41,011 nt of DNA from Sulfurihydrogenibium subterraneum DSM 15120. Its GTDB lineage: Bacteria > Aquificota > Aquificia > Aquificales > Hydrogenothermaceae. The translations under genes were made by a program, and so were the position numbers. The notes below the pieces were generated by a model. The model did not search any database. It worked only from the letters and a program-made list of their open reading frames with translations, and was not told where the DNA came from. The stretch covers positions 1 through 41,011 of the forward strand of contig NZ_JHUV01000017.1 in the NCBI RefSeq assembly GCF_000619805.1, in the 5' to 3' direction. Positions 1 through 21,238 of the stretch are shown here, one piece after another (position 1 is the first letter of the stretch; each line of letters starts with the position of its first letter).

Positions 1-238
1 TTTTAATTCTTGACTTTCTAAATATGTGATAAGACTTTATAGAGTCATCAATAAATTGTCTTGCTATTTTCAAAACAGGCATTCCAGTCATGTATGATAA
101 GATGAAAGCTGCTGCTATTTCTTCATCGGTAATTTTTGGTTTTCTACCAGCATTAGATTTAGCTGTATTTTTATAAAAAGAAACTTTAAATGATTGAAAA
201 TTTTTGAGAAGTATGTTATAAAACTTTTCCAGTTGCAT
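1..238 (-). CDS. Transposase-like protein, N-terminal part, cut by window edge
   Basis: An open frame runs leftward from an ATG at 238 to the window edge without a stop, giving 79 residues. A strong Shine-Dalgarno, GGGAGGTC (250-243), lies 4 bases before the ATG. The protein begins MQLEKFYNIL and carries a basic stretch (NAGRKPKITDEEI) followed by a predicted helical segment. This resembles the helical N-terminal region of DDE transposases of the IS4/IS5/IS982 type. The catalytic domain lies outside the window, so neither the family nor whether the gene is intact can be judged. The reading frame and RBS are seen directly; the transposase call is a similarity judgement from memory. It could instead be another small DNA-binding protein. 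Confidence 0.5.
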   Translation of the reverse strand, partial: MQLEKFYNILLKNFQSFKVSFYKNTAKSNAGRKPKITDEEIAAAFILSYMTGMPVLKIARQFIDDSIKSYHIFRKSRIK

Positions 239-248
239 TTTTGACCTC

Positions 249-296
249 CCAAAAGTAGTTTGGGTATATTATAACCCGAGCTACTTTTGGCTTTTT
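249..296 (+). terminator. Strong hairpin at head of transposase-like gene; terminator-like on plus strand
   Basis: Arms 249-265 and 274-290 pair over 17 bp around an 8-nt loop, ATATTATA. The two non-Watson-Crick positions (259/280 and 261/278) are G-U pairs only in plus-strand RNA; in minus-strand RNA they are A-C mismatches. TTTTT follows at 292-296. This favours a terminator of rightward transcription, that is antisense to the transposase-like gene. On the minus strand the same arm overlaps the GGGAGG ribosome site, so it might also mask translation. Confidence 0.6.
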
Positions 297-386
297 ATTA
301 GAAATAAAATTGAAAAAATGAATTTCTCACTCAAGGTATATACAAAATAATTTTAAATATACTATCATTTTTATTCTCAAAAATTT

Positions 387-436
387 TTGATAAAAATCAA
401 TGATTAAGTTAAAACTTATCAAATAAAATATAAATG
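387..436 (+). promoter_or_regulatory. FNR/DNR-type promoter upstream of candidate sRNA
   Basis: TTGATAAAAATCAA (387-400) is a perfect TTGAT-N4-ATCAA palindrome. A TAAAAT -10 candidate at 424-429 predicts a start near 436, putting the box centre at about -42. That is the class II FNR activation geometry. It points into the hairpin-terminated element at 436-508, not directly at napA, because a terminator intervenes. Confidence 0.6.
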
Positions 437-508
437 TAAGTTCCACCACACCTCCTTTTACATTTGTTTTCTCCCATGGGAACCTCCTCCGGTTCCCATT
501 TTTTTTAA
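436..508 (+). ncRNA. Candidate small RNA with CCUCC (anti-Shine-Dalgarno) loops
   Basis: This stretch of about 70 nt lies between an FNR-type promoter and a strong intrinsic terminator, with no usable ORF (the only ATG near its start, 434-436, is followed at once by TAA). A weak 5' stem (432-439 with 458-465, partly lost if the start is 436) encloses a C-rich loop containing ACCTCCTTT (450-458). That string matches the usual 3' end of 16S rRNA and is complementary to AAAGGAGGT ribosome sites. The terminator stem displays a second loop, TCCTCC (485-490). Known parallels are FNR-controlled sRNAs (FnrS, AniS) and CCUCC-loop sRNAs of Alphaproteobacteria (CcsR, cuckoo RNAs). The structure is seen; expression and function are inferred. 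The alternative is an untranslated leader of an upstream transcript that simply ends here. Confidence 0.5.
476..508 (+). terminator. Intrinsic terminator of the candidate sRNA
   Basis: ATGGGAACC (476-484) pairs perfectly with GGTTCCCAT (491-499), 9 bp around a TCCTCC loop, and is followed by an unbroken T tract to about 507. This is a textbook rho-independent terminator. It isolates the napA promoter, whose box begins only 20 bp downstream. Confidence 0.9.
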
Positions 509-582: not shown

Positions 583-656
583 AGTTAGAACTAACTAATA
601 CCGCCGGTTCGGTGGCGGAATAAAAATAACCGAACCCGTTAAATACGGAAAAGGAG
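583..656 (+). promoter_or_regulatory. Structured nap leader: hairpin plus possible H-type pseudoknot
   Basis: After a small hairpin (583-587 with 592-596), CCGCC (601-605) can pair with GGCGG (614-618). The eight bases between them, GGTTCGGT (606-613), are exactly complementary to ACCGAACC (629-636). The A-rich linker AATAAAAATA (619-628) would lie along the first stem. This is an H-type pseudoknot layout, or two mutually exclusive hairpins. The RBS AAGGAG (651-656) begins 14 nt later. It does not look like the larger Moco riboswitch. The complementarity is seen; a regulatory role is inferred. Confidence 0.5.
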
Positions 657-662
657 AAGAAT

Positions 663-3467
663 ATGGAGGTCAAGGAGAACACAACATTAGAACTCTCCCG
701 TAGAGACTTTCTGAAAACTGTTGCTGCAGTTTCTGCTGCTACTGCCATAGGAATGGAAGTGCCTGAAGAAGTTTTAGCAGCTACAGAATCTCAAGCTGGT
801 TGGAGATGGGATAAGGCTGTTTGTCGTTTTTGTGGAACAGGTTGTGGAATAATGATCGCGACTAAGGATGATAGGATAGTTGCAGTTAAAGGCGACCCAA
901 AAGCGCCTGTAAACAGAGGATTGAACTGTATTAAAGGATACTTTACAGCAAAAATTATGTATGGGGAGGACAGGTTAACAACACCTCTTTTGAGAGTAAA
1001 CGAAAAGGGCGAATTTGACAAAAAAGGAAAATTTAAACCTGTAAGTTGGCAGAAAGCATATGAAGTAATGGTTGAACAGTTTAAAAAGTATTATAACCAG
1101 CTTGGTCCTACTGGAATTGGCTTTTTCTCATCTGGACAACATACAATAATGGAAGGATACGCAGCTGTAAAACTTATGAAAGCCGGGTTTAGAAGCAATA
1201 ATATAGATCCAAATGCAAGACATTGTATGGCAAGCGCAGTTGCCGGTTTTATGCAAACATTTGGTATTGACGAACCTCCTGGATGCTACGACGATATTGA
1301 ACTTACAGACACAATCGTTGCTTTTGGATCAAATATGGCAGAGATGCATCCAATCCTTTGGTCAAGAGTGAGTGATAGAAAGTTATCAAATCCGGATAGA
1401 GTAAAGGTTGTTGTTCTATCAACATTCAGACATAGAAGTATGGATTTGGCTGATATTGATATTGTGTTCAGACCAAATACTGACCTTGCTATATTTAACT
1501 ACATCGCAAGAGAAATAGTTTACAATCATCCAGAAGCAATTGATAAAAACTTTGTTGATAAATACTGTGTATTTACAACGGGTTATGTAGATATTGGATA
1601 CGGTATGAGGGAAGATGTTGATAATCCAAAATACTCATCTTTAGAAAAGGAAACAATGATAAAACAAAAGAAAAAGGTTATCTCTGAAAGAGAAGCTCCT
1701 GCATTAGCTTACCTTGGTGTTAAACCTAAAGATGTTCTTGAGATGAAACATTCTGGCCAAGCAGATGCCCATTGGGTTATATCTTTTGAAGACTTTAAAA
1801 AAGCTCTTGAACCATACACACTTGATTATGTAGCAACAATTTCTAAAGGCGATCCTGATGAACCATTAGAAGAATACAAGAAAAAACTAAAAGCGTTAGC
1901 TGACCTATACATTGAAAAAGGAAGAAAGGTTGTTACATTCTGGACTATGGGATTTAACCAGCACACAAGAGGTACTTGGGTAAACGAACAAGCTTATATG
2001 GTTCACTTACTCCTTGGAAAAATGGCTAAACCGGGAGATGGGGCGTTTAGTTTAACCGGACAACCTTCTGCCTGTGGTACAGCAAGAGAAGTGGGAACAT
2101 TCTCTCATAGACTACCGGCAGATATGGTTGTTAATAACCCTGAACATAGAAAAATATCAGAAAAAATATGGAAAGTTCCGGCAGGAACAATAAATCCTGT
2201 TCCAGGATCTCATATCGTTCAGATTATGAGAGATTTAGAAGATGGAAAGATAAGATGGGCATGGGTTCAAGTATGTAACCCTTGGCAAGATACAGCAAAT
2301 GCAAATCACTGGATAAAAGCTGCAAGAGAGATGGATAATTTCATAGTTGTTTCAGAAGCTTATCCGGGAATATCAGCAAAAGTGGCAGATTTAATTTTAC
2401 CTTCTGCAATGATTTATGAAAAATGGGGTGGTTATGGAAATGCAGAAAGAAGAACTCAACTGTGGAGACAACAAGTAACACCTGTTGGAGAAGCAATGTC
2501 TGATACATGGCAGGTTGTTGAATTTTCTAAATTCTTTAAATTAAAAGAAGTGTGGAAGGAATGGAAACTGCCAAATGGAACTATTCTTCCTAACGTTTTA
2601 GATGCAGCAAAGGCTATGGGTTATAATCCTGAAATGACTCTTTACGATGTATTATTTGCAAATGAAGAAGCAAAAAGTTATAAATGGCCGGATCCTATAG
2701 GAAAAGGATTCCTAAATACAGAGGCAGAAGGTGATAAAAGAAATGTAATAGGTGTTGATGGAAAACCATGGAAAGGTTATGGATTCTTTATACAAAAATA
2801 CCTTTTTGAAGAGTACAGAAAATTTGGACTTGGACACGGACACGACCTTGCAGACTTTGATACATATCATAGGGTAAGAGGATTAAAATGGCCTGTTGTT
2901 GATGGCAAAGAAACACTTTGGAGATTTAACGCCAAGTATGACCCATACGCAAGAAAAGCAGGGGCAGGAGAATTTGCATTCTACGGTCCTGCATTTAAGA
3001 AAATACCAAAAGGAAATCTTTTTGGTCCATCAACAGAGGTGGTAGAACTTAAAAATAAGACAAAAATCTTTTTCAGACCTTATATGGATCCACCTGAAGT
3101 TCCAGATGAAAAATATCCATTCTGGTTATGTACTGGTAGGGTTCTCGAACACTGGCATAGTGGAACAATGACAATGAGAGTTCCTGAATTATATAGGGCA
3201 GTTCCTGAAGCACTCTGTTATATGCATCCTAAAGATGCTGAAGCTATTGGAGTTAAGGATGGGGAGCTTGTATGGGTTGAAAGCAGAAGAGGAAAGGTTA
3301 AAGCCCGTGTATCTACAAGAGGAAGAAACAGACCACCAAGAGGGCTTGTATTTGTTCCATGGTTTGATGAAAGGGTTTATATAAATAAAGTCACTCTTGA
3401 TCAAACCTGTCCTATATCTAAACAAACTGATTATAAAAAATGTGCAGTTAAGATTTACAAAGCATAA
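663..3467 (+). CDS. napA: Periplasmic nitrate reductase catalytic subunit NapA
   Basis: This protein reduces nitrate to nitrite in the periplasm using a Mo-bis-MGD centre and one [4Fe-4S] cluster. A twin-arginine signal (S-R13-R14-D-F-L-K) precedes a hydrophobic stretch. The cluster cysteines are C54, C57, C61 and C89 (C-x2-C-x3-C-x27-C). The molybdenum ligand is C188 in [10 protein letters not shown]. The C-terminal MGD-binding domain is complete, and 934 aa fits the epsilonproteobacterial NapA size rather than the shorter (~830 aa) proteobacterial form. The ATG at 663 has AAGGAG 6 nt upstream. It is the first gene of napAGHBFLD, 13 nt before napG, and is driven from the FNR-type promoter at 528. 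No napC is present, so electrons should come through NapGH and NapB. Confidence 0.97.
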
Positions 3468-20534: not shown

Positions 20535-20563
20535 ATACTTTTATTAAAAAATTGAGAGAGTAT

Positions 20564-21238
20564 ATGGGAATGACAATAGAAGATTTAAAAAACGTCTATC
20601 TATTCAAACACTTATCAGATGAAACTTTAAAAGAATTGGCATCAATATCCACTATTAGAGAGTATGAACCAGGGCAGGTTCTCTTTTTTGAAGGAGAAAA
20701 AGCAGAGAATCTTTACATTTTATTAGAAGGAAAATTGAAAGTTTATAAAACTACATTCAAAGGAATAGAAATATTCATAAATCAGTTTGGTCCTGTTTCT
20801 ATGATTGGAGAGCTTGCAAATTTTGAAAAGATCCCTTATCCAGCTACTGCGGAATTTATGACAGAAGGAAAAGCTTTGGCTATCAATTTTAAAGTTTTTG
20901 AAGAAAAATTTTTAAAAAATCCTGATATACTTCTATCTATACTTAAATCTTTGTCAAATAAAATCAGGATGCTAAATAACTTTATAGACTCAACTGTTGT
21001 ATTGAGTGCTGAGGCAAGAGTAGCAAAACTTATACTTGAAAGTCCTGAGATATTTGAAATTTTGAAACATAATCAAATAGCATCTTTCCTAAATATAACT
21101 CCTGAAACATTGTCAAGAGTCCTTTCTAAATTAAAAGATAAAAAAATCATATCTATCGAAGGTAAAAAAATCCAAATAAAAGATAGAGAAAAACTAAGAA
21201 GATTGTCAAAAGATGAACCGTTAATCTTTGTTAAATAA
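20564..21238 (+). CDS. Crp/Fnr-family regulator, DNR-like (no cysteines)
   Basis: This 224-aa transcription factor has an N-terminal cyclic-nucleotide-binding-like sensor fold (about 12-130), a dimer helix and a C-terminal helix-turn-helix. The recognition helix reads TPETLSRVLSKL with E181, S184 and R185, the E-x-x-S-R set that in FNR reads TTGAT half-sites. The protein contains no cysteine at all, so it cannot carry the FNR [4Fe-4S] oxygen sensor. NO-sensing DNR/NnrR-type regulators share this property. The ATG at 20564 is chosen (20570 also possible) because GAGAGAG (20554-20560) serves as ribosome site; an upstream TTG at 20552 would consume it. Its predicted sites occur throughout the window. 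It converges on the DUF59 gene with an 8-bp overlap. Confidence 0.85.
   Translation: MGMTIEDLKNVYLFKHLSDETLKELASISTIREYEPGQVLFFEGEKAENLYILLEGKLKVYKTTFKGIEIFINQFGPVSMIGELANFEKIPYPATAEFMTEGKALAINFKVFEEKFLKNPDILLSILKSLSNKIRMLNNFIDSTVVLSAEARVAKLILESPEIFEILKHNQIASFLNITPETLSRVLSKLKDKKIISIEGKKIQIKDREKLRRLSKDEPLIFVK

Follow-up and report, generated by a model that had tools for sequence, protein, structure and literature searches.

The locus immediately upstream of napA in Sulfurihydrogenibium subterraneum DSM 15120 raises the question of whether a promoter of the FNR type, followed some 70 nt downstream by a terminator, delimits a small RNA (sRNA) gene, a regulatory part of the napA leader or a transcript devoid of function. 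The window, i.e. the whole stretch of 41,011 nt analysed here, is a nap-nir-nor denitrification region encoding NapA, cytochrome cd1, a NirJ-type radical SAM protein, a NorB-like protein and a Crp/FNR regulator, and napA is located at 663..3467 on the forward strand, like all window features given below (NCBIfam TIGR01706, 1410 bits). We consider it rather likely that positions 387-506 constitute an sRNA gene activated by a regulator of the FNR/DNR family, the product of which would be a trans-acting RNA of about 70 nt occluding Shine-Dalgarno regions.

The promoter of this unit (P1) contains an FNR/DNR-type box, TTGATAAAAATCAA, at 387..400 and a -10 hexamer, TAAAAT, at 424..429. The perfect box and the hexamer had both been claimed in the preliminary description and both are present, with the class-II spacing expected of an FNR-regulated sRNA: the box is centred near -41.5 and the predicted start is about 435-436. 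The box occurs at the same place in two relatives, G098 (10/10) and G100 (9/10), where the equivalents of the hexamer are TAAAAT and TATATT, respectively. A second perfect FNR-type box (P2, 528..541), with a -10 TATAAA at about 562-567 and also at class-II spacing, sits 3' of the sRNA terminator and serves napA; it is kept in G098 and G100. In the whole genome, 20 TTGAYNNNNRTCAA sites were counted, of which seven lie inside the 41-kb window (2.5% of the genome), between 387 and 23933, and the reversed control pattern gave 10 sites genome-wide. As a set, the FNR boxes of the window are far beyond chance, and the seven TTGAYNNNNRTCAA sites mark a compact FNR/DNR regulon. The candidate activator of P1 and P2 is the Crp/FNR-family regulator encoded at 20552..21238 (Pfam cNMP_binding and HTH_Crp_2), which carries an ETLSR recognition helix, as expected for TTGAT/ATCAA half-sites. 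No obvious N-terminal Cys cluster could be detected in its translation, which suggests equal likelihoods for FNR and a DNR-like NO sensor.

The predicted sRNA extends from the start to the U-tract (435..506). The 74-nt RNA 434-507 folds with an energy of -16.5 kcal/mol versus -7.7 +/- 2.1 kcal/mol in shuffled sequences (z = -4.2; 0 of 200 shuffles). Terminator scanning and folding both identified an intrinsic terminator at 476..506, consisting of a stem (476-499), a UCCUCC loop (485-490) and a U8 tract (499-506); a scan of 3 kb found six terminator-like sites versus 1.6 expected. The body of about 70 nt contains no usable open reading frame, one ATG running straight into TAA, and an ATG at 476, inside the terminator, opens a frame of 10 codons without a Shine-Dalgarno sequence. 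The earlier claim of about 70 nt free of coding sequence before a strong terminator was therefore confirmed, and its own promoter, its own terminator and the lack of a frame together give the locus the generic features of an intrinsically terminated sRNA gene. In Hfq-dependent sRNAs, a U-rich stretch before the terminator and a U-tract form the Hfq-binding 3' module. A 3' end of this form is present here as the U-rich UUUGUUUUC, the stem and the U8 tract, a U-tract of at least 7 being taken as the threshold, and two distinct Hfq homologues are encoded in each of the seven genomes of the genus (e.g. G000:C9:41327-41515 and C12:64078-64257 in the genome of the window). Judged from their sequences, the 3' end and the Hfq genes would fit an Hfq-type trans-acting sRNA. 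We infer that the sRNA is transcribed, that the regulator described above drives it and that it is bound by Hfq.

The C-rich stretch at 449-458, CACCTCCTTT, matches part of the 3' end of the organism's own 16S rRNA, GGATCACCTCCTTTA, in agreement with the identity to the 16S tail put forward previously. Within it, the putative seed CACCUCC (449..455), part of the CACCUCCUUU common to the 16S 3' end, is identical in G098 and G100, as is UUUUCUCCC (467..475), which directly precedes the terminator and may act as a second seed and/or as a U-rich Hfq site. Two CCTCC motifs occur in 44 of 2000 shuffled transcripts of such composition, so the repeat alone is mildly unusual and no strong evidence. The preliminary description had proposed two exposed C-rich loops. 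The CACCUCC of the first is conserved as sequence, but no equivalent hairpin presents it in G100, in which ACCUCC falls outside the counterpart of hairpin 1, and the UCCUCC of the second is lost there, the terminator loop being ATAAAAAG, without a C-run. Moreover, hairpin 1 (434..463; pairs 434-440/457-463), A-U rich in the window and in G100, forms in the fold at 37°C and is predicted to be melted at 65°C, a temperature at which the terminator hairpin alone remains; presentation of the first loop by this hairpin at growth temperature is thus not upheld, and at the temperatures of a thermophile the seed would in any case be unpaired. The repeated C-rich motifs could also be read as a device for titrating a C-rich-binding protein instead of pairing mRNAs. 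This we hold to be most improbable: no such protein was identified, and the loss of the terminator-loop motif in G100 leaves two conserved C-runs.

Among 112 genomes of the order searched for homologues, one gave a full-length match, G098 (1,640,877 bp), with 99% identity from promoter to terminator; the gdh genes of the two genomes are 93% identical, so the value for the sRNA exceeds expectation only slightly. In G100 (1,838,442 bp), the stretch upstream of napA contains the FNR box, a correctly spaced TATATT, GCACCTCC, TTTTCTCCC and a terminator, which is kept but has a different stem and loop. For this sRNA, which MAFFT misplaced, Smith-Waterman alignment was used: the score of the 42-nt window body against its G100 counterpart exceeded those of all 2000 shuffles, and CACCTCC and TTTTCTCCC are identical, so that both motifs are conserved across the three genomes. 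The carriers belong to one genus and two of them are nearly identical; two distinct sequences offer no compensatory changes that could be scored. A search of the 112 genomes for an FNR box combined with ACCTCC recognised no further locus with the sRNA anatomy beyond these three, its match rate being about that of the reversed control. Persephonella-type BLAST matches obtained with the G100 promoter, with E values as low as 4e-7, correspond to FNR promoters of protein genes and not to sRNA homologues.

This narrow distribution is compatible with a fortuitous or decaying promoter-terminator pair yielding a functionless transcript, or with an FNR box that serves the divergent gdh gene, and we regard such an origin as rather unlikely. 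C-rich stretches, like AT-rich promoters, come about readily, as the shuffles containing two CCTCC illustrate, and in G098 about 60-75 bp separate the first box from the start of gdh. Nevertheless, G100 keeps the box, the -10, the C-rich motifs and the terminator together beside nrdB and not beside gdh, and the similarity of the bodies is beyond what shuffling produces. The left neighbour, gdh in G098 and in the genome of the window, nrdB in G100, points away from the sRNA in all three cases, so a rightward terminator can only end a short transcript begun at the intergenic FNR box. In the genome of the window, gdh and, after it, an insertion sequence form the end of contig C9; the assembly break (window 1-372 and the end of contig C9) corresponds to an insertion sequence that separates gdh from the sRNA. 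The same 31 bp (ATATACAAAATAATTTTAAATATACTATCAT) occur at the two contig ends beside inverted AATTTCTCACTCAA ends, which resembles a long target duplication.

The element adjoins napA in both nap-bearing genomes, and this position suggests another role, in cis: P1 would be an additional nap promoter, the hairpin an attenuator and the short RNA a terminated by-product, UUUUCUCC pairing with the napA Shine-Dalgarno sequence in the read-through leader. In the fold of 434-662, GUUUUCUCC indeed pairs with the napA ribosome site, and in G100 UUUUCUCCC could likewise pair with GGGAGAAGG at that of its own napA. This pairing is, however, not above what composition gives (z between about -0.6 and -0.8), the analysis revealed no alternative antiterminator structure and, in both genomes, napA possesses its own FNR promoter, P2, between the terminator and the gene. 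Furthermore, G098 retains the unit without napA, transposon sequence being found at the place where this gene is expected. On these grounds, the cis role appears unlikely. The retention of promoter and sRNA in G098 has itself to be read with care, since an orphan nap FNR box is kept as well and the loss of nap may be too recent for sRNA retention to prove selection. This orphaned box, still perfect, lies beside an insertion sequence (L010 1290-1620).

If the locus is an sRNA gene, as we favour, its targets would lie among ribosome sites. For 38 genes of the window, the duplex energy between sRNA and ribosome site follows that of the duplex with the 16S tail (r = 0.81), i.e. Shine-Dalgarno strength. 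The targets named earlier, which are the porin, cytochrome c', DUF2249 and norZ genes, turned out to be ordinary (z = -0.4, -1.2, -0.8 and 0.0, respectively, versus shuffled sRNA). More conspicuous were acs, with the best score in the window (z = -3.8), and actP (z = -2.6). The acs site was rejected because it pairs about as well in genomes of the genus lacking the sRNA. The longest complementarity in the genome, obtained by DNA search, is with the ribosome site of an fccB-like flavoprotein gene (20 of 21 nt) and was also discarded, being missing from the G100 gene. From the 38 window genes and the DNA search of the genome, no specific target was retained, both of the best candidates failing the comparative tests. 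The acs gene of G100 (G100:C1:1579449-1581648) is split in two parts, matching query residues 1-118 and 109-299 and separated by about 1.3 kb.

Each element of the proposed sRNA has a precedent, anti-Shine-Dalgarno pairing in NfeR1 and dependence on FNR in FnrS. NfeR1, of the alpha-r14/cuckoo family of alphaproteobacteria, silences ntrB at its ribosome site via anti-Shine-Dalgarno motifs; it shares with the present candidate a short length, unpaired C-rich anti-Shine-Dalgarno motifs, the covering of ribosome sites (proposed in our case) and a tie to nitrogen metabolism (PMC10746234). It differs by its three hairpins, each with CCUCCUCCC, and its control by LsrB/NtrC, whereas the candidate has a single conserved CACCUCC plus UUUUCUCCC, an FNR-type promoter and belongs to another phylum. 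Instead of the three CCUCCUCCC hairpins of the family, the candidate has two hairpins with a different motif, and no ar14 Rfam match was obtained in the window. FnrS of E. coli is part of the FNR regulon and NarS is another FNR-dependent sRNA; an FNR-type promoter, a host with Hfq and an intrinsic terminator expected to yield a short trans-acting RNA are common to both and to our locus (PMC8139620). Unlike them, the candidate has other seeds and neither sequence nor covariance-model similarity to them (no Rfam match to the FnrS family at gathering scores, no FnrS model in permissive scans), and the window encodes a DNR-like Crp/FNR protein without the N-terminal Cys cluster. RoxS/RsaE of Firmicutes, induced by NO via ResDE/SrrAB, is likewise linked to respiration and NO and has conserved C-rich regions (PMC4409812). 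These are four in number and its activator is of another class; no homology to the window sRNA was detected, the Rfam model giving no match in gathering or permissive scans. Sub-threshold Rfam matches (RefA1, Moco, suhB and others) were far below the gathering cut-offs and probably due to AT-rich composition, and were discarded. The locus probably encodes a real FNR/DNR-dependent sRNA, one that is restricted to the genus and belongs to a known kind of regulator.

The mechanism that we propose is as follows. Under low oxygen or in presence of nitrogen oxides, an activator of the FNR/DNR family would bind 387-400, and transcription would run from near 435-436 to about 506, where the terminator stops it. 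The resulting RNA would be trans-acting and probably bound to Hfq through its U-rich stretch, terminator and U-tail. Its single-stranded CACCUCC, and perhaps also UUCUCCC, would pair with Shine-Dalgarno regions and block ribosome entry on some mRNAs. It is with moderate confidence that we infer this occlusion as the mode of action. A habitat at 60-70°C favours single-stranded seeds over seeds presented by loops, and anti-Shine-Dalgarno riboregulation of respiration would, if the proposal is correct, reach a deep-branching thermophile. Within the literature found, Aquificota would thereby gain their first candidate for a small RNA under FNR/DNR control; the sole genome-wide ncRNA survey of Aquificales in that literature gives, in the part of its text available to us, candidates for A. 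aeolicus only and mentions no FNR-dependent sRNA (PMC4227106).

The locus would also be a case of a small-RNA gene arising beside a respiratory operon. In most nap leaders of the Persephonella type the FNR box stands between about -254 and -291, and the P1 box here stands at -276; in 20 further genomes of the family, the napA leaders have an FNR box and no intervening terminator. The one mock terminator match, in leader L138, proved to be the leader pseudoknot itself. It is conceivable, albeit quite doubtful, that this Sulfurihydrogenibium-specific sRNA originated in the nap leader: a terminator would have cut off the ancestral FNR promoter of nap while napA gained a new FNR promoter at -135, and the leader left without its gene would have turned into an anti-Shine-Dalgarno mimic damping the translation of many mRNAs with strong Shine-Dalgarno sequences during nitrate/NO respiration.

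The H-type pseudoknot of the napA leader (600..636), formed by CCGCC/GGCGG plus GGTTCGGT/ACCGAACC and showing strong covariation, is a neighbour and not a part of the sRNA. Its core, ACCGCC..GGCGGAATANAARTA, is accompanied by a covarying second helix and often by an outer helix too (L264-L283, L235-L263). Besides GGTTCGGT/ACCGAACC, the covarying second helices include GTATG/CATAC, GCTAAA/TTTAGC, GCCGGAA/TTCCGGC, GCAGACC/GGTCTGC, GTTGGGG/CCCCAAC and GCTGGGG/CCCCAGC, and their class-level length is 6.7 versus 3.9 when the 3' strands are dealt anew (0 of 1000). No family of Rfam 15 matches the pseudoknot. Copies precede unrelated Aquificota genes (by eye, rpsM, adk, guaB, metE, ftsH, lexA, clpX, leuB and others), with up to 14 per genome and almost none in the reversed control. 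The outer-helix sequences are common to the copies within one genome, which suggests a 5'-leader RNA element that may be spreading.
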